Source: Acidimicrobiales bacterium
Lineage (GTDB): Bacteria; Actinomycetota; Acidimicrobiia; Acidimicrobiales; SKKL01
Length of the DNA stretch: 64,000 nucleotides
Direction: 5' to 3'
Assembly: GCA_034521975.1 (NCBI GenBank)
Contig: JAXHLR010000009.1
Span: forward strand, 62,001-126,000
A program made the translations under genes and the position numbers. This document shows, in pieces, positions 47,616 to 57,663 of this stretch (position 1 is the stretch's first letter; every line of letters begins with the position of its first letter). A model generated the notes under the pieces. It saw nothing but the letters and a program-made list of their open reading frames with translations, had not been told where the DNA came from and did no database searches.

Positions 47616-49331
47616 TCAGCCTTCGCGGCCCGACCGGCGCTGGTAGCGCGGCGGACGGTCCTCCTCGGGCCGCTCGTCGAAGACCACCACCGTGCCCTCG
47701 GGTTCGAAGAACGGGGTCGTGGATTCGCCGACCTCTCCGGGCAGGTAGCGCTTCCCCTCGTCGAGGTAGCGGTACATGCCGACGTCGCCGGCGTCGGTGC
47801 GAGGATCGGGCTCGTCGGCATCCCACCAGAGCAGCGTCACGTCATCCGCGGCGAGGTAGTCGGGCCACTGCCACAGCACCTCGCCGTAGGAGGTGCCGTA
47901 CTGGGTCCGGTATCCCCATGCCGGTTCGAACGAGAACATCCCGTCGCGGAACGTCTCGGGTGTGAGCTCGGGACCGGCCAAGTGGACCCCGTTGAAGAAC
48001 CGGGCCCAGTCGAAGATGTCGGGGTAGTTGGACAGCTCCTCACCGAGGTGCCAGCTCACCAGGTTCCCCTCCTGCTGGGTGTAGGCGGGGTCGATGGGCG
48101 GCAACAGGTAGGACAGACCGAAGGCGTTGGCCCACTGGTCCTGGTCGTACAAGCGGGCCAGATCCGAGTTGTCGGTGGCCGCTGCCCCCACCACGATCCA
48201 CTCCGGCCAGTAGTCCTGGGCGGTGGCCTGACTGGTGAGGTTCTGGGGCATGAACGGATCGGTGGCGATGATGACCGAGGTGACCCCTGCCTCCTTGAGA
48301 CGGGTGATGATCGCCTGGGCGTCTTCTTCGCGGTTGCTCGAGTCGGCCATGAAGGTGATGCTCGCCGCCAACTCGACGTCGTGCTCGGCCAATTGCTCCT
48401 CGAAGAACTCGACCCCGTCCTGATAGGCGCCGTCCGGGGTCTCGTACCACACCAACCCGAACTGACGCTCGGTCTCCTGCAGCTCGGGAGTACCCGCGTA
48501 CTGTGCGGGTGATCCGGCCAAGCGGTTGGCGATGAAGTCGGCCCGGTGCACATAGCCCTGGGTCGACGACATGAGACCGGACCACACGTAGGGCGCCCAC
48601 TCGAGGTAGTTCTCGATGGGCTGCGAGCCGGTGCAGAAGCACATGACACCACGATCGACGAGCTCGTTCACATAGGCGTTGATGGCGCCGCCACCGGGAC
48701 CGTTGACCACCGCGAACGCGCCGACCTCCTCGGCGATGGCGATGGCATCGGCCCGGGCGGCGGCCTCGTCGTTGCCATCGCCCGACGCCGCCACCACCTC
48801 GACCCGCACGTCGCGGCCGTAGGTCTCGTAGAGGTCGTTGAACGCACCCACCAGCTTGAGCCGGTTCTCGGCCTCTACGGCCTCCTCCGGCGTGGTGATG
48901 CCGGTGCGCTCCTGGGCGTCGAGCCCGGCTTCGCTCGTCTCGGCGTCGTAGAGCGCGACCACGATCTCGTCCTCGGTCACGCCCTGGTAGGTGGCTCCCC
49001 CGTTGTCGGCGCCCTCTGGCCACAAGGGCACGCAGTTGGGCGCGGCGACGGTGGGTAGCATGATCCGACCCGTGTCGGGGTCGCAATCCGGCGCGTCATT
49101 CGGATCGCCGAGGTCGTCTCCCACCGCAACGTCGTCCGAGCCCTCGTCGGAGCCCCCGTCGGTGGTCTCGGTGTCGTCGGGTCCGACCGCGACATCATCA
49201 TCGTCGCCATCGTCGCCGTCGTCGCTCCCGCTCAACGCGCCGATCGCCACCACCGCGGCGATCACCACGATCGCAACCAGCACTGGCCAGTAGCGAGCGA
49301 TGGCAGGACTGGTCTTGGTTGATTCTTCCAC
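47616..49331 (-). CDS. Membrane-anchored substrate-binding protein of a Liv-type ABC transporter
   Basis: A 571-residue periplasmic-binding-fold protein of the branched-chain-amino-acid (LivK) class. It begins with a hydrophobic helix (YWPVLVAIVVIAAVVAIGAL, residues 13-32) without a lipobox cysteine, then an Asp/Glu/Gly/Ser linker of about 40 residues (DDGDDGDDDD). The two-lobe binding domain follows, with VTEDEIVVALYDAE, AFAVVNGPGGGAINAY and SVIIATDPFMPQNL. It should sit outside the membrane on a flexible stalk and deliver ligand to the permease encoded on the other strand. GTG 49331 follows GGGGGGAAA. The long upstream frame is not part of the protein. The ligand is unknown; amino acids, amides or urea are all possible. 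Confidence 0.87.
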   Translation of the reverse strand: MEESTKTSPAIARYWPVLVAIVVIAAVVAIGALSGSDDGDDGDDDDVAVGPDDTETTDGGSDEGSDDVAVGDDLGDPNDAPDCDPDTGRIMLPTVAAPNCVPLWPEGADNGGATYQGVTEDEIVVALYDAETSEAGLDAQERTGITTPEEAVEAENRLKLVGAFNDLYETYGRDVRVEVVAASGDGNDEAAARADAIAIAEEVGAFAVVNGPGGGAINAYVNELVDRGVMCFCTGSQPIENYLEWAPYVWSGLMSSTQGYVHRADFIANRLAGSPAQYAGTPELQETERQFGLVWYETPDGAYQDGVEFFEEQLAEHDVELAASITFMADSSNREEDAQAIITRLKEAGVTSVIIATDPFMPQNLTSQATAQDYWPEWIVVGAAATDNSDLARLYDQDQWANAFGLSYLLPPIDPAYTQQEGNLVSWHLGEELSNYPDIFDWARFFNGVHLAGPELTPETFRDGMFSFEPAWGYRTQYGTSYGEVLWQWPDYLAADDVTLLWWDADEPDPRTDAGDVGMYRYLDEGKRYLPGEVGESTTPFFEPEGTVVVFDERPEEDRPPRYQRRSGREG

Positions 49332-49392
49332 TCGGTTTCCCCCCGGATGAGCAGACTGTGGTGACAGGCCGTGTCCACCGCCTGCCCCGCGC

Positions 49393-49402
49393 AGACTACC
49401 CT
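49393..49402. promoter_or_regulatory. Overlapping -10 candidates of the divergent Liv-type locus
   Basis: TACCCT (49397-49402, plus) and TAGTCT (49393-49398, minus) overlap in the 148-bp gap between the binding protein and the lipoprotein gene. Overlap would make the two promoters mutually exclusive. Both genes have near-identical GGGGGGAA ribosome-binding sites. Confidence 0.35.
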
Positions 49403-49479
49403 GTGGGCCACGCGACATGGCCGCAGGTTGGAACGCGGCTGCTTCGCGACGTGTCGCACTTGACATCTCAGGGGGGAAC

Positions 49480-50079
49480 ATGCAAGTCGAGCCGACCACG
49501 CCGCGAACCGCGCGCCGGGGCGCCGCTCCGCGCCGCCAGTTGTTGTTCGCGGTCGCCGCCGCCGCCTTGGTGGCCGGGTGCGTGCTTCCCGGCAGCGAGG
49601 ATGCCGACGATTCGAGCATCGACGTCGAGCGCCCGCTCCGCGAGGCCGGCGACGTCGAGGGCCGCGTGGGCGACCCGCTCGAGGTCTACGGCATCACCGC
49701 CACCGTGCTCGAGGTGGGGCGCGTCGCCGAGTACAACGAGTTCGACACCTGGGGCTACATCTGGGCCCGCGTGAGGGTCGAGAACACGACCTCCCGCGAG
49801 ATCGACTTCCACCGTCGACAGTTCCAGATCGAAAAGCCCGACGAAACGGTCTCCAACACGGCCAACATCAGCACCGAGACCCAGCTCGAAGGCAGCTCGG
49901 TCACCCGTCCCGACGTCCTCGCTCCGGGAGAGACCGGGGAGGGTCAGGTCATCTACACCGTCGGCGACCTCGACGGTCAGTTCGCGCTCATCTACCGCCC
50001 CGACCCTCCGACCGAGGACGTCATCGATGCCGAGCGCGGCGTGTGGGTCTTCGAAAGCAGCCCTGAAGACGCCGAATGA
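49480..50079 (+). CDS. Putative lipoprotein with DUF4352-like domain
   Basis: A 199-residue exported lipoprotein. Basic residues, a hydrophobic run and the lipobox LVAGC (Cys at about residue 32) indicate lipid anchoring outside the membrane. After a short acidic linker, the domain begins GDPLEVYGITATVLEVGRV and continues with WARVRVENTTSREIDFHRRQFQIE and LAPGETGEGQVIYTV, the pattern of the DUF4352/immunoglobulin-like telokin family. ATG 49480 has GGGGGGA eight bases upstream. Its stop overlaps the permease start (ATGA), so it belongs to the transporter operon. It could be an accessory substrate or stability factor for the transporter; no such role is established. Confidence 0.8.
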   Translation: MQVEPTTPRTARRGAAPRRQLLFAVAAAALVAGCVLPGSEDADDSSIDVERPLREAGDVEGRVGDPLEVYGITATVLEVGRVAEYNEFDTWGYIWARVRVENTTSREIDFHRRQFQIEKPDETVSNTANISTETQLEGSSVTRPDVLAPGETGEGQVIYTVGDLDGQFALIYRPDPPTEDVIDAERGVWVFESSPEDAE

Positions 50080-52415
50080 CCGCCGCCACCACCGCCACAG
50101 TCGGCCGGCGCCCACCGCTCATCACCGCCGAGTCGCTGCGGTCGGCGGGTCTGATCGCCGCGTGTGGGGCCGGGTTCCTCGCCATTCAGTCGGTCCTGTT
50201 GCCCATGCCCCTCGGCGTGATGGTACAAGGCGCGATCATCGGCGGGCTCACCGCCCTCATCGCCCTCGGCATCGCGCTGGTCTACCGAGCCAACCGCATC
50301 ATCAACTTCGCCCAGGGCGACCTCGGCGCGGTGCCGACGGTGTTCACCGTCCTGCTCATCTCCGGGGCAGGGGTACCGTTCCTGCTCGCCCTCCCCATCG
50401 GAATCGCCGGAGCCCTCGCGCTCGGCGCCCTGGTGGAGTTCACCATCATCCGCCGCTTCGCCAACGCGCCCCGCCTGATCCTCACGGTCGCCACTCTTGG
50501 CCTGGCCCAGGCGTTGGCCGGCTTCGGCCTCATCCTGCCGTCGCTGCTCAACAACGCCTGGCCGGGCATCTTCCCCGACAGCGGCATCAGCGGCACCTTC
50601 CCGGCGCCGTTCGACGCCCGGTTCAACATCGGCACCGTCGTGTTCGGCGGCAACGACATCATCGCCCTGGTGGCGATCGTCGCCTCGGTCGCGGCGCTCT
50701 CGGCGTTCTTCCGCTACACCCGCATCGGCATCGCGGTCCGGGCCAGCGCCGAGAGCGCCGACCGCGCCATGCTGCTCGGCATCCCCGTGAGGCGCATCGG
50801 CACCATCGTGTGGGTCATCGCCAGCTTCCTCGCGTTCCTCGCCCTGTTCCTGCGGGCGGGCGTGCTCGGCCTCTCGCTCGGCACGGTGCTCGGCCCCACC
50901 ATCCTCATCCGGGCCCTGGCCGCTTGTGTCATCGGCCGCATGGAGCGCATGGCGGTGATCTTCTGGTCGGCGGTCGGACTGGGAATCCTCGAACGGGGCA
51001 TCTTCTGGAACACCGACCGCAGCGCGCTGGTCGCGCCGGTGATCTTCGGTGTCCTGCTGGTCGTGCTCCTGATCCAACGCCGGGCCAAGCTGGCTCGCAC
51101 CGACGAGCAGTCCAACTGGCAGGCCGTCGCCGACGTGCGCCCGGTGCCACCGGAGCTCGCCGGCCTTCCCGAGGTCCGCTGGGGGTTCCGCGCCGTGTAC
51201 CTGGCCCTGCTGGCCGTCGCCCTGGCACTCCCGCCGGTGCTGTCGGTGAGCCAGATCAACCTCGCGGCGACGATCTTCATCTACGCCATGGTGGCGGTAT
51301 CTCTGGTGGTGCTCACCGGGTGGGCCGGCCAGGTCAGTCTCGGCCAGATCGCGTTCTTCGGCTTCGGCGCTGCGATCGCCGGCGCCATCACGACCAGGTT
51401 CGGGTGGGACATCTCCCTGGCGATCCTCGTGGCGGCCGTCGTCGGCGCCGTCATGGCGGTGGTGATCGGTCTCCCGGCGCTTCGGGTCAAGGGGCTGTTC
51501 CTCGCCGTGATCACCCTGGCCTTCGCCGCCGCCACCTCCGGCTACTTCCTGAACCGGGGCGACTTCGGTTGGTGGCTCCCCGACGGTCGCGTCGACCGTG
51601 GCGAGCTGTTCGGCGTGATCCCCCTCGGCACCGAGACCCAGTACTACTACTTCGCCTTCGCCTGCCTGTTGCTGATGATGGCCATGGCCAGACAGCTCCG
51701 TCAGTCGCGGGTCGGGCGGGTGATCGTCGGTGTCCGGGAGAACGAGCGGGGTGCGCAGGCCTATGCGGTCAACCTGGTTCGAGCCAAGCTCACCGCGTTC
51801 GCGATCTCGGGCTTCATCGCCGCGTTCGCGGGCGCGGTGTTCGTCCACCACCAGCGGGACTTCGGCATCCAGCCCTATGCCACGACCGAGAGCCTCGCCG
51901 TCTTCACCATGGTGGTCATCGGGGGACTCGGCTCGATTCCCGGTGGCATCGTCGGCGCCCTCTACGTCAAGGGCACGCAGAACTTCCTCCCCAGCGAGCT
52001 GAGCTTCTTCGCCAGCGGCCTCGGCCTCCTCGCGGTCCTCATCGCCCTGCCCGGCGGCCTGGCTTCGCTCATCTACCGCGGCCGCGACGGCATCCTCCGC
52101 CGGGTGGCCGAACGGCGCAAGATCATGGTCCCCAGCCTCTTCGCCGACGCAGCCGACCTCGACGGCATCACCAGCAGCCGCGAAAAGGGCATGGAGTTCG
52201 TCCGCCAGATGGCCGACTTCATGGATGCCTCCCGGGCCTCCGCCGCCACAGCTCGCGGCCGGCGTCGCGCCGATTCCGAGGAGTTGGACGACGAGGGGGT
52301 CGACGGCGAGGCGCCGGTACCGGCGCCACCCCGGCTCCCCGATGACGATGCACCGCTCATCGCTCCCCCGAGCACCGACTCCGAAGCGCCGACCGGGCGA
52401 GGAGGTCGCCGGTGA
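50076..52415 (+). CDS. Branched-chain amino acid-type ABC permease, LivH-LivM fusion
   Basis: A 779-residue protein holding both Liv permease halves in one chain. Residues of about 45-335 match LivH (ALVYRANRIINFAQGDLGA is the family hallmark). A hydrophilic linker follows, and about 365-685 match LivM (LTGWAGQVSLGQIAFFGFGA and VIGGLGSIPGGIVGALYVKG). The last 90 residues form a polar tail rich in Arg, Glu and Pro. It should form the full membrane channel on its own. It overlaps the lipoprotein gene (ATGA) and the MFS-ATPase fusion gene (GTGA) by four bases each. Fused LivHM proteins are known in actinobacteria; the long tail is unexplained. Confidence 0.92.
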   Translation: MTAATTATVGRRPPLITAESLRSAGLIAACGAGFLAIQSVLLPMPLGVMVQGAIIGGLTALIALGIALVYRANRIINFAQGDLGAVPTVFTVLLISGAGVPFLLALPIGIAGALALGALVEFTIIRRFANAPRLILTVATLGLAQALAGFGLILPSLLNNAWPGIFPDSGISGTFPAPFDARFNIGTVVFGGNDIIALVAIVASVAALSAFFRYTRIGIAVRASAESADRAMLLGIPVRRIGTIVWVIASFLAFLALFLRAGVLGLSLGTVLGPTILIRALAACVIGRMERMAVIFWSAVGLGILERGIFWNTDRSALVAPVIFGVLLVVLLIQRRAKLARTDEQSNWQAVADVRPVPPELAGLPEVRWGFRAVYLALLAVALALPPVLSVSQINLAATIFIYAMVAVSLVVLTGWAGQVSLGQIAFFGFGAAIAGAITTRFGWDISLAILVAAVVGAVMAVVIGLPALRVKGLFLAVITLAFAAATSGYFLNRGDFGWWLPDGRVDRGELFGVIPLGTETQYYYFAFACLLLMMAMARQLRQSRVGRVIVGVRENERGAQAYAVNLVRAKLTAFAISGFIAAFAGAVFVHHQRDFGIQPYATTESLAVFTMVVIGGLGSIPGGIVGALYVKGTQNFLPSELSFFASGLGLLAVLIALPGGLASLIYRGRDGILRRVAERRKIMVPSLFADAADLDGITSSREKGMEFVRQMADFMDASRASAATARGRRRADSEELDDEGVDGEAPVPAPPRLPDDDAPLIAPPSTDSEAPTGRGGRR

Positions 52416-55400
52416 CCACCCACGACACGCCCTCGACAGATCAGGGAGACGAGCCCGAGGGACCGGCGTCGCGTCGTCGCAAGGCCACCGAGTCCGGTGC
52501 CGGCACGCGCCCCCTGTCCGAACGGCTCCGCGACTGGAAGCCCTCCAACATCACCCAGGGGGCCCCGGTCTTCCCGCTGTTCGTCCTGTTCGGGCTCAAC
52601 GTGGTCGACGAGCTGGACCGCGAGGCGTTCAACGTCTTGCTCCCCAACATCCGCGACCACTTCGGCCTGGGGATCACCGGCATCCTCACGCTCGTCTCGG
52701 TGGTCGGCTTCTTCGTGCTGTTCCTCGAGATCCCGCTCGCCCACCTCGCCGATCGACGCAACCGCACCCGCATCGCCGCGGGCGGCGCCGCCGCCTGGGG
52801 CGTGGCCTCGGCGCTGACCGGCGCCGCGACCAACATCTGGATGGTTGGCGGCGTGCGGGGTGCGGCCAACCTCGGACGAGCGGTCAACGGCGCCACCCAC
52901 CGGCCGTTGCTCTCGGACTACTACTCGATCAACGTCCGCCCCGCGGTGTTCGCCGCCCACGACGCGGCGAACTCGATCGGTCGCATCATCGGGCCGATCG
53001 CTGCGGGGACCCTGGCGTTCTACTTCACCTGGCGCACCCCGTTCTTCGTGTTCGCCGTCCCCACGATGATCTTCGTGCTGCTCGCGCTGCGGCTCAAGGA
53101 ACCGGTGAGGGGGTTCCACGAGCGCCAGGCGCACGGAGCCGACGAGACCACCTCCACCACCGAGGAGGCCCCCGCCTCGATGGCCGAGGCGTGGCGGGTG
53201 CTGTGGCAGGTGCGGACGCTGCGCCGCATCTGGATCGCCACTCCAGTGCTGGCCATCCCCATCTTCACGCTCTCGCCCTTGCTGCAGCTCTTCTATGCCG
53301 ACGTGCTCGGGCTCGACGAGTACCAGCGCGGACTGGTGTCGGCAGCCACCGAGCCCTTCCAGATCGTCGGCCTGCTCATCGGCATCCCCATCGCCACCAA
53401 GCTGATGCGCAAGGATCCGGCGCTGCTGCTCAAGTTCCTCGGCGTCGCCGGCGCGCTGCAGGTCGTCGCCCTTTTCCTCCTGGTGTTCACCGAGAACCTG
53501 CCGATGGTCATCGCCATGCGAGCCGCACTCGCCTTGGTCACCTCGTCCACCGCACCCGGACTGGCCGCTGCCACGTCGCTCATCATCCCGCCCCGGGTCC
53601 GTTCGATGGGCTTCACCATCGGGAACCTGTTCATCATCCCGTCGCTGCTGGCGGGGCCCATCCTGGGCGCGCTGGCCGATCAGTGGGGCCTGCGGACCTC
53701 GCTCATCGTCCTCTGCCCCATGATCCTGCTGGGGGTGGCGATGATCACCTCCGCCGGGCCCTTCATCACACCCGACATCCACAAGGTGCGCACATCGACG
53801 GTGGCGATGGCCGAGGTGCGCAAGGCCCGCGACGAGGGCCGGGCCAAGCTCCTCCTGGTCAAAGAGCTCGACGTGCACTACGACACCGTCCAAGTGCTCT
53901 TCGACGTCGACTTCGAGATCGACGAAGGAGAGATCATCGCGCTGCTCGGCACCAACGGTGCGGGCAAGTCCACGCTGTTGAAGACCATCTCGGGGCTCGT
54001 CGAGCCCTCGGCCGGGGCGATCATCTTCGACGGGGTCAACATCAGCAACGCACCCCCGAACGAGATCGTGCGCCACGGGGTGGTCCAGGTGCCCGGCGGC
54101 AAGGGGATCTTCCCGTCGCTGTCGGTCGGTGAGAACATCAGGCTGGCGGGATGGCCCTACGTCGACGAACCCGAGTACCTCCAGGCTGCCACCGAGGAGG
54201 TCCTCGGACACTTCCCGATCCTCCGCCGGCGCTGGAACGATGCCGCCGGGAACCTCTCCGGCGGCGAGCAGCAGATGCTCACCCTGTCGATGGCCTTCAT
54301 CGCCAAGCCCCGCCTGCTGATGATCGACGAGCTCTCGCTCGGCCTGGCCCCGGTGATCGTCGAGCGTCTGCTCGAGGTGGTCGAGGCGATCCGCGCTCGC
54401 GGCACGACGATCATCCTCGTCGAGCAGTCGATCAACGTCGCCCTCACCGTCGCCGAGACCGCGTACTTCATGGAGAAGGGCGAGATCCGCTTCAAGGGAC
54501 CCACCAGCGAACTGCTCGAACGCCCCGACATCCTGCGGGCGGTCTTCCTGGAAGGGGCTGCCTCGCTCGAGGGCGCCGATGAATCGCCCCGGGTCGCCGC
54601 CAGGACACGCTCGAACCAGGACGTGGACGCCGATGCGCCCGTCCTCAGAGCAGAAGGGCTCACCCGCTCCTACTCGGGCGTCCTCGCCGTCAACGACATC
54701 AGCTTCGACCTGCGACGCGGCGAGATCCTCGGGATCATCGGGCCGAACGGCGCGGGCAAGACCTCCTTGTTCGACCTGCTGTCGGGCTATCTCACCCCCG
54801 ACCGTGGACGGCTGTGGTTCGACGGTCGCGACATCACCCACCTGTCTCCCAGCGCCCGTGCCGGGTTGGGCTTGGGGCGCTCGTTCCAGGACGCACGGCT
54901 GTTCCCGGGCCTCACGGTCAAGGAGACGATCTCGCTGGCGCTCGAGCGCACCGTCGAGGTTCGGGACCCCGTCGCCACCGCCCTGGGGCTCCCCGTGGTC
55001 CGCGACTCCGAACGCAAGGTCGCGGCCCGTGCCGACGAGCTCATCGGGATGCTCGGTCTCGAGGCCTTCGCCACCAAGTTCGTCCGCGAGCTGTCCACCG
55101 GCAGCCGCCGGATCGTCGACATCGCCTGCATCCTGGCCCACGAACCCACGGTCATCCTCTTCGACGAGCCGTCGTCGGGGATCGCCCAGCGCGAGAGCGA
55201 GGCCCTCGGCCCGATGCTGGCGCGCATCCGCGAGGTCACCGGAGCCAGCCTCGTGGTCATCGAGCACGACATGCCGCTGATCCGCTCGGTGTCCGACGAG
55301 ATCCTGGCGCTCGAGCTCGGCGAGGTCGTCATCAGGGGCACACCCGACGAGGTGATGCACGATCCCCGGGTCGTGGCGTCGTACCTGGGCACCAACGAGG

Positions 55401-55447
55401 CGGTCATCGGTCGGTCAGGACCCACCGGTGGCGAGGACGGCGGGTAG
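52412..55447 (+). CDS. MFS transporter fused to two Liv-type ABC ATPases (MFS-LivF-LivG)
   Basis: A 1011-residue three-part protein. Residues of about 50-455 are a 12-helix major-facilitator transporter ([12 protein letters not shown] is its loop 2-3 motif). About 478-710 form a LivF-like ATPase with Walker [10 protein letters not shown], signature LSGGEQQML, Walker [14 protein letters not shown] and [10 protein letters not shown]. About 742-990 form a LivG-like ATPase with Walker A GPNGAGKT, a divergent signature LSTGSRRI, Walker [14 protein letters not shown] and IEHDMPLI. The reading frame is continuous, with good codon bias throughout, so it is not an assembly joint of separate genes with stops. 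The GTG start overlaps the LivHM stop. How an MFS unit works with an ABC motor is unknown. Confidence 0.93.
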
Positions 55448-55566
55448 GCCCCAGGCCTCACGAACGACGGCGACTCGCCGATGGGGACATGGGTGGGGAT
55501 CGGACCTCGCCGCCACGGAGGTCGGTCCGAACATGGACCCAGTCGACAACACCCAGCGGGCGTCAC

Positions 55567-57663
55567 GTGAGCTCTGCCGAGATCGGTGACCGCGGGGGAC
55601 CGAACGGGCATCCCACCGGCTGGTGGAAGGCCGTCGTCGAACGGTCCTCCGACGTGCTCGTCGCGCTCGACGCGAGCGGCACCATCACCTATGTGAGCCC
55701 GTCGGTGCGTCGGGTCTTCGGGTGGGACGAGTCGGACCTGGTGGGCTCCACCGGCTTCCACCTCGTCCACACCGACGACTCCGACCGGATCCGGATGGTG
55801 CTCGAGCGAGGTCTCGGCGGCGGCACCCCCGATTCGTATCCCACCTTCCGGCTGCGCCACCAGAACGGCTCGTGGCGCCACGTCGAGGCTCGGGCGTCGA
55901 ACCTGCTCTCGCTTCCCGATGTGCAGGCGTTCATCATCAGCATCCGCGACGTGACCGAACGGGTGGAGGCCGAAGCAGCGGTCCAGCTCCGCGACGAGCG
56001 GTATCGGGCGGTGGTCCAGGCATCGCCCGAAGCGATCCTCATCCACCAGAACGAGACCGTGGTCCACGCCAACCCCGCGGCGGTGCGGCTCCTCGGTGCC
56101 AGCGACCGCTACGAGCTGGTCGGCTTGGACCCCGCGGACCTGGTCCAAGCCGAGCCCGACGACCCTCAGCCGGGCACGCCGACCGGGGTGACGGGGTTGG
56201 ATCGTCCGATCTCTCCGATCGATCGAATCGTGCGACGCCTCGACGGCAGCACCGTGGCGGTGGAGGTCACGAGCATCCCGACGATCTGGGACGGATTCGC
56301 GGCCATCCAGTTGATCGCCCGTGACGTCACCGAGGCGCGACAAGCCGACCAGACGCTGATGCACCTGGCCACCCACGACCCGCTCACCGGACTCCCCAAC
56401 CGCAACCTTCTCGAGGACCGGCTCCGCCATGCATCGGCCCGCGCCGTTCGCACCCAACGTCCCTTCGCCGTGCTCTTCGTCGACCTCGACCGCTTCAAGG
56501 TCATCAACGACACCTTCGGCCACCAGGTGGGTGACGAGGCGCTCCGCGAGGTGGCCGGCCGGCTGACCGAGGCGGTGAGGCCGGGTGACACCGTGGCCCG
56601 CTTCGGAGGCGACGAGTTCGCGGTCGTGGTCGAGGATCTGCTCGTGGCCGACACCGTCGACCTGGTCGTCGAGCGGGTTCACGCCGCCTTCGACGAGCCC
56701 ATCGTGGTCCGCGATCGTGAGATCAGCATCGGGGGGAGCATCGGTGTGGTGGTCGCCGAAGAGGGGGGCGATCCCCGCACGCTGCTCCGCGATGCCGACA
56801 CGGCCATGTACACCGCCAAGACCAAGGGACGTGGCCAAGCTGTACGGTTCGACGCCGCCCTCCGCGAGCAGGTGCATCGCCACGAGGAGTTGGAGCTCCG
56901 GCTGCGGGCGGCACTCGATGAGCACCAGGTGGTACTCGCGCTCCAGCCCCTGGTGAGGTTGGCCGATCGCAAGGTGGTTGGCGTCGAGGCACTGATGCGC
57001 TGGGACCATCCAGAGCGCGGACTGCTGCTACCCGAGGCCTTCCTCGAGGTCGCCGATGAATCCGGGATCCTGCCCGACCTGGGACAGGAGCTCTTCGAGC
57101 TCGCCTGCGCCGACGCGGCGCGTTGGCGCACGTCCCGCCAGGGTCCCGACGGGGGCGAGGTGCCGTGGATGAGCATCAACGTCGCCGCCAGCGAGCTGTT
57201 CCACCCGGGGTACGCGAGCCGGATCTTACAAACGCTCTCGGACCACGGGCTGCCGCCCACCAGTCTCTACCTCGAGCTCGGCGAGGACGCGATCCTCGAC
57301 GATCCGGTGGGGGCCGTCGAGGCCCTCCGGCCGCTGCGCGAGGCAGGTGTGTCGGTGGCCATCGACGACTTCGGCACCGGGTACACCTCGCTCACGACCC
57401 TGCGACGCCTCGGGCCCGACCTCCTCAAGATCGATCAGTTCTTCGTCGAGCGGATGACCGAGTCACCGTCGGATGCCGCCATGGTCCGAGCCGTGATCCA
57501 GATGGGGCATGCGCTGGGGATCCCGGTGGCGGCCGAAGGCGTCGAGCTCGTGGAGCAACAGAACTTCCTGACCGTCCTGGGATGCGATGTGGCCCAGGGG
57601 TTCCTCATCGCTCGACCCGGCCCGCTCTCCTCGCTCGACTCGGTCTTCGACCCCGGTCACTGA
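55567..57663 (+). CDS. PAS-PAS-GGDEF-EAL cyclic-di-GMP signalling protein
   Basis: A bifunctional-looking protein of about 698 residues. Two PAS domains (about 20-135 and 140-255) precede a GGDEF domain (265-430) with the intact RFGGDEF site and an RxxD (RPGD) five residues upstream, the usual product-inhibition site. An EAL domain (437-690) has VEALMRW, LELGEDAI, IDDFGTGYTSL, LKIDQFF, AAEGVE and DVAQGF, so the metal and catalytic residues of a phosphodiesterase look intact. No transmembrane helix is seen, so it senses something in the cytoplasm. GTG 55567 is the likely start, though weakly supported; ATG 55489 is possible. It makes and breaks c-di-GMP according to the PAS input. Confidence 0.92.
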   Translation: MSSAEIGDRGGPNGHPTGWWKAVVERSSDVLVALDASGTITYVSPSVRRVFGWDESDLVGSTGFHLVHTDDSDRIRMVLERGLGGGTPDSYPTFRLRHQNGSWRHVEARASNLLSLPDVQAFIISIRDVTERVEAEAAVQLRDERYRAVVQASPEAILIHQNETVVHANPAAVRLLGASDRYELVGLDPADLVQAEPDDPQPGTPTGVTGLDRPISPIDRIVRRLDGSTVAVEVTSIPTIWDGFAAIQLIARDVTEARQADQTLMHLATHDPLTGLPNRNLLEDRLRHASARAVRTQRPFAVLFVDLDRFKVINDTFGHQVGDEALREVAGRLTEAVRPGDTVARFGGDEFAVVVEDLLVADTVDLVVERVHAAFDEPIVVRDREISIGGSIGVVVAEEGGDPRTLLRDADTAMYTAKTKGRGQAVRFDAALREQVHRHEELELRLRAALDEHQVVLALQPLVRLADRKVVGVEALMRWDHPERGLLLPEAFLEVADESGILPDLGQELFELACADAARWRTSRQGPDGGEVPWMSINVAASELFHPGYASRILQTLSDHGLPPTSLYLELGEDAILDDPVGAVEALRPLREAGVSVAIDDFGTGYTSLTTLRRLGPDLLKIDQFFVERMTESPSDAAMVRAVIQMGHALGIPVAAEGVELVEQQNFLTVLGCDVAQGFLIARPGPLSSLDSVFDPGH

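Follow-up and report, generated by a model that had tools for sequence, protein, structure and literature searches.

The stretch of DNA analysed here, 64,000 nucleotides of contig JAXHLR010000009.1 from an Acidimicrobiales bacterium (hereafter the window), contains a gene in which an MFS domain is joined in one open frame to two ATPases of the Liv type, next to the genes of the presumed partner subunits. The genes, and the parts of the fusion, are as follows.

47616–49619, minus strand: gene for a putative large periplasmic binding protein, divergently oriented (weak Peripla_BP_6 match under the Pfam cut-off)
49417–50079, plus strand: gene for a small DUF4352 protein of 220 aa, overlapping the LivHM start (ATGA) and present in locus L010 too
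50076–52415, plus strand: gene for a fused LivH–LivM permease of 779 aa, the partner subunit, with BPD_transp_2 twice (Pfam)
52412–55447, plus strand: MFS–LivF–LivG fusion gene, 1011 aa, a single open frame with a GTG start and a TAG ending at 55447
52547–53752, plus strand: MFS domain, residues 46–447, 12 TM helices, Spinster/DgoT-like (Pfam MFS_1, closest solved structure, model)
53756–53833, plus strand: joint helix, residues 449–474, straight after TM12 and leading to LivF strand 1 at residue 479 (models and lengths)
53846–54547, plus strand: LivF-type ATPase domain, residues 479–712 (profiles, homologue alignment, structure match 1ji0)
54548–54637, plus strand: flexible LivF–LivG linker, residues 713–742, of low pLDDT, the AlphaFold model being disordered from 709 to 739
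54638–55411, plus strand: LivG-type ATPase domain, residues 743–1000, with the signature LSTGS

The GTG start of the fusion gene and the stop of the LivHM gene share a 4-base overlap (GTGA). A preliminary description of this DNA had claimed a single uninterrupted MFS–LivF–LivG frame of 1011 residues, which is borne out by the open frame, by Pfam and by the 12-helix model; the domain search that it proposed found MFS_1 once, with E=8.6e-37, and ABC_tran twice, with E=2.4e-60. The MFS_1 score of 127.3 bits, against a gathering threshold of 33.4 bits, together with the 12 modelled helices, places the N-terminal domain in the MFS. The AlphaFold model of the fusion, with 48 homologues in the alignment, has a mean pLDDT of 83.5, and its 12 MFS helices mostly reach about 90 or more. 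A structure search matched the LivF domain to 1ji0 (42% identity, TMt 0.91); when the whole fusion model was searched, ATPase pairs dominated and the result was uninformative for the MFS domain. The source genome carries the fusion in single copy, with ordinary stand-alone LivF and LivG genes elsewhere on contig 3.

When such a frame is encountered, it is necessary to consider that separate genes may have been joined by an error of assembly or annotation, and the preliminary description had itself named a sequencing error near 53850 as a concern. We rejected a frameshift or chimera at this point, as the homologues examined, among them those of the isolate genomes CP011489.1, NZ_CP077604.1 and NZ_KI632509.1, read through the junction without interruption. 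The one homologue that might be cited in favour of an artefact, L112, is the single exception to the open junction, and its apparent split corresponds to 10 consecutive N in the assembled sequence; among the Liv-linked homologues found, none has a real split into MFS and ATPase genes, the observation that the preliminary description had put forward as its refutation. Since dozens of assemblies as well as isolate genomes show the fused frame, and no linker position has a conserved start codon (best column 26/48), we regard an artefact as extremely improbable.

Walker A, Walker B and signature motifs are legible in both ATPases, as had been stated, with Walker B reading LLMIDE and VILFDE; the statement needs qualification in that the signature of the LivG domain is LSTGS instead of LSGGQ (window 55091–55105, residues 894–898), that of the LivF domain being LSGGE. 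Across the 48 aligned homologues the P-loop and Walker B residues are invariant, as are the LivF signature residues S616-G617-G618 and Q672 and, in LivG, H952 and the signature residues S895-T896-G897. One nucleotide set, comprising the LivG Walker motifs and H952 with the LivF signature LSGGE, is fully canonical, and the other combines Q672 at the switch position, where glutamine is usual for LivF, with the signature LSTGS.

The best profile matches of the two ATPases are of the LivF/UrtE and LivG/UrtD types, which supplies the two ATPases of a Liv/HAAT importer; the two permeases are represented by the two BPD_transp_2 stretches in the LivHM fusion of the same operon, and a candidate binding protein shows a weak Peripla_BP_6 match (21.2 bits against a cut-off of 31.7). 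A urea transporter of the UrtABCDE type was considered and rejected, as the full subunit set fails the NCBIfam equivalog cut-offs. LivF scores above the cut-off for UrtE (296.8 against 285.8), but the scores for UrtD (288.9 against 304.1), UrtB (74.9 against 250.3) and UrtC (86.2 against 296.2) all fall below theirs, and the window permeases lie far under the LivH, LivM, UrtB and UrtC cut-offs. Because LivG scores above the cut-off for LptB as well, the single-subunit UrtE and LptB cut-offs are non-discriminating here.

A survey of homologues for the order MFS–LivF–LivG beside LivHM had been suggested, and in all 46 of the three-domain loci with room to see, LivHM lies directly upstream of the fusion; in 41 of 45 other loci the gene that comes next after the fusion encodes a homologous binding protein. 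In several of these loci (L013, L015, L017, L020, L035, L049, L058, L060 and L068) the fusion is followed by two to four binding-protein paralogues in tandem, which suggests several receptors serving one importer. The binding-protein ORF of the window (47616–49619, minus strand) has a long low-complexity N-terminal stretch and then a single membrane segment, with no obvious lipobox, and it is probably over-long at its N-terminus, the true start lying about 100 codons downstream. Beyond the fusion, at about 55530–57663 on the plus strand, is a gene in which PAS, GGDEF and EAL-like domains are apparent by sequence reading. No substrate emerged from gene context, neighbour counts over 33 loci being unremarkable beside those at free-MFS loci; acyl-CoA ligase, enoyl-CoA hydratase and thiolase genes surround the operon in IMCC26256 (L024), and amidohydrolase and PhyH matches occur in 7 of 33 loci each, largely from related marine MAGs.

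The expectation that other genomes carry the fusion was confirmed: about 70 further Acidimicrobiia loci have the same domain order, and two of these belong to isolates with closed genomes (CP011489.1 and NZ_CP077604.1). Our scan of GTDB genomes gave 80 loci, most of which encode full-length MFS–LivF–LivG proteins from Acidimicrobiia MAGs with 80 to about 47% identity. There is also a second layout, in which MFS–LivF (about 750 aa) is followed by LivHM–LivG (LivHM after MFS–LivF in 20 of 23 loci); it occurs in Acidimicrobiia and in other Actinomycetota, for example Haloechinothrix halophila (L077), and in both layouts the MFS domain is at the N-terminus of LivF. An even sample of the class contained a fused form in about 30 of 100 genomes, and of 396 genomes sampled from the phylum 25 had MFS–LivF in one frame, with matches spanning both domains. 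One genome from the same order as the window, G078, has about nine fusions of the MFS–LivF type in both layouts, a local expansion.

In a tree of MFS domains made by a quick method, a branch with support 99 has on one side 99 rows, 98 of them fused and one free, and on the other nearly all free relatives together with HnSpns and a fused outlier, L137; among the fused rows, proteins with two domains lie apart from those with three, although seven two-domain proteins bore a three-domain label in this tree. Each free relative is encoded by a single gene, of 440–550 aa, and none of those fetched adjoins Liv permease genes. The simplest story would be one early fusion followed by a change of LivG partner, although the root of the tree is not secured. 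The LivF tree places within the three-domain clade two loci without the MFS domain, L056, where LivF starts directly behind LivHM, and L081, from a Chloroflexi-labelled MAG, where LivF is fused to LivHM in place of the MFS; the MFS domain has therefore been lost at least occasionally, with the ABC part surviving. Three further loci (L083, L087 and L061) tell nothing about such loss, being on truncated contigs or having no visible MFS region.

The joint between MFS and LivF differs markedly from that between the two ATPases. With every protein aligned to domain profiles and grouped by its domain content, the MFS–LivF gap measured 7–9 residues in 71/71 three-domain proteins and 4–9 residues in 32/33 two-domain proteins, whereas the LivF–LivG gap ranges from 12 to 105 residues in homologues. 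In the window model a helix of residues 449–474 is continuous from TM12 and LivF strand 1 begins five residues on; a second and independent model, of the Haloechinothrix protein, the MFS domain of which is only about 21% identical to that of the window, has the same 26-residue helix (435–460), with LivF strand 1 eight residues on, at 468. Part of this helix is the MFS family's own, since D455 at its head is also invariant in free relatives. The length of a tether could vary and that of the joint does not, which is our strongest argument for an MFS domain packed into the importer rather than merely carried along; loose co-localization is likewise made less likely by its being tied to LivF in particular, by a helical joint of near-constant length. 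The same contrast with the freely varying LivF–LivG linker argues against two independent transporters on one chain, namely a low-affinity ion-coupled MFS carrier and a high-affinity ABC importer for the same solute class, fused for co-expression and co-location only, an arrangement that we consider unlikely.

The closest solved MFS structures by sequence are those of HnSpns (6e8j, 1.7e-35), DgoT and human SPNS1. In HnSpns, Asp41, Glu129, Arg42, Arg122 and Asp142 take part in a proton-operated relay, of which Asp41 and Glu129 are the proton switches (PMC9440201). Their counterparts D69 (HnSpns D41), R149 (R122) and D169 (D142) are kept in 69/71, 68/71 and 71/71 proteins of the three-domain branch, as are D114 (D87), the aspartate of motif A (residues 108–122), in 70/71 and R70, the counterpart of Arg42, in 58/71. 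At the position of Glu129, the master switch of Spns, most three-domain proteins have K, R or Q, so that of the two proton switches the first is kept and the second mostly replaced, and Spns coupling therefore cannot be read across to the fusion MFS. We rejected loss of Glu129 as a mark of fusion, as free relatives are also changed there. Residues that do follow the fused proteins include R306, which the model places at the outer end of TM8 (97/99 fused against 1/13 free MFS proteins), R272 (71/71 three-domain, 11/12 of the two-domain branch F2a, 1/13 free) and H163, N164 and H183, a polar TM4–TM5 set of the three-domain branch. The MFS domain is under purifying selection and maintained, its dN/dS of 0.02–0.14 between close orthologues matching the range of the ATPases; within the clade of the window itself the values are about 0.3–0.4 for MFS and 0.04–0.29 for LivF. 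In the window's branch it probably still has working alternating access. This selection, a divergence about like that of the permeases, and the keeping of motif A, D69, R149 and D169 in the three-domain branch are what two independent transporters would predict.

The two-domain branch F2a (12 rows, Haloechinothrix among them) presents a different picture, with D69 mostly replaced by Q, D114 by Q and R149 mostly by L. Given these losses its MFS domain may not transport, yet the fusion and the joint persist, which again counts against independent transporters. The loss of carrier residues in one sister branch argues against carrier transport as the sole force keeping the fusion, and what all branches share is attachment to LivF, not the relay. 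Such persistence is consistent with the MFS domain being a transceptor-like membrane sensor, that is, a receptor for solute or proton status that gates the ATPases, as would be the rigid joint to one ATPase. The MFS-type receptor UhpC reports to a kinase, and soluble regulatory domains gate other importers. A fused precedent is provided by the sensor kinase–MFS family, of unknown function, listed as TC 2.A.1.34 (PMC3924187). The window's branch nevertheless retains the charge-relay residues, and we hold the sensor to be as doubtful as the pair of independent carriers. It could also be argued from F2a, which lacks the aspartates of motif A and TM1 and the arginine of TM4, and from L056, where the MFS domain is dispensable, that the domain passively anchors the ATPases or helps them to assemble as a chaperone, neither transporting nor sensing; such an anchor would have no need of a conserved 12-helix core, of motif A or of the branch-specific H163, N164 and H183, and we think this role improbable.

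The explanation that we favour, and to which we would commit about half of our confidence, is that of an MFS domain built into a Liv-type importer as an integral subunit and coupled mechanically or allosterically to LivF. The preliminary description had put forward three candidate roles, a second substrate route, a membrane anchor or a switch between primary and secondary transport. In this scheme the importer, of the Liv (HAAT) type, would consist of two polypeptides, MFS–LivF–LivG pairing with LivH–LivM, to which the binding protein would deliver substrate. A helix of near-fixed length would join the MFS domain end-on to LivF, so that the conformation of the carrier and the movement of LivF could influence each other, and in the window's branch an MFS domain with Spns-type charge-relay machinery may move or sense the same or a related solute beside the importer. 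The single frame, the order and recurrence of the domains, the geometry of the joint in models and alignments, the selection and the retention of residues are shown by the data; the 1:1 complex, the mechanical or allosteric coupling and the retained transport are the parts of this explanation that we infer. In favour of an integral subunit we count the MFS–LivF order kept in two operon layouts; against it we count the evidence from L056 and L081 that the ABC part can do without the MFS domain, the loss of the relay in F2a and the replacement of E129. A bolder arrangement, which we judge distinctly less probable than either the sensor or the independent carriers, is a hybrid transporter with two translocation units, LivHM and the MFS domain, both served by a single ABC ATPase pair; acting on the MFS domain by way of its rigid joint to LivF, ATP hydrolysis would drive or lock the alternating access of what would be an ATP-gated MFS.

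Primary transport, driven by ATP, and secondary transport, driven by gradients, are normally carried out by unrelated proteins, and a joint of nearly fixed length across dozens of species, in a large group of actinobacteria from soil and water, suggests two transporter classes working as one machine. This widespread and geometrically constrained union offers a system for asking whether an ATPase controls the MFS or the MFS regulates an ABC importer, and its sister branches, in which the carrier residues are kept or lost or the MFS domain itself is lost, form a natural mutant series. The preliminary description knew of no characterized protein of this type, and we likewise found no MFS joined to Liv ATPases described in the 5.39 million open-access papers to which the search extended. 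Sequence databases probably hold such proteins under domain names, while neither the family nor its pair of layouts nor the near-constant length of its joint appears to have been described; it is a large importer family in the Acidimicrobiia, a class of poorly known nutrition.

Several known systems resemble the fusion in part. It shares with the Liv/HAAT importers (LivFGHMK, UrtABCDE; TC 3.A.1.4) the LivF and LivG ATPases, the LivH and LivM permease folds, a putative binding protein and an organization in one operon, and differs from them in that the components are fused into two polypeptides, with MFS on LivF and the signature LSTGS in LivG. With Spns proteins (HnSpns 6e8j, SPNS1) and DgoT the MFS domain has in common motif A, the TM1 aspartate, the TM4 arginine and the TM4 aspartate, whereas E129 has become K, R or Q, R289 an acidic residue or glutamine, and the C-terminal helix runs on into an ABC ATPase. 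As in ArsA/ArsB, where a carrier runs on a gradient, or on ATP once the ATPase joins, a carrier and an ATPase come together, but ArsA is not an ABC protein, ArsB is not an MFS protein, and a full ABC permease is present here. Sensor kinase–MFS fusions likewise join an MFS domain to a soluble signalling or energy domain, the partner in the present case being an ABC ATPase pair within a complete importer operon.
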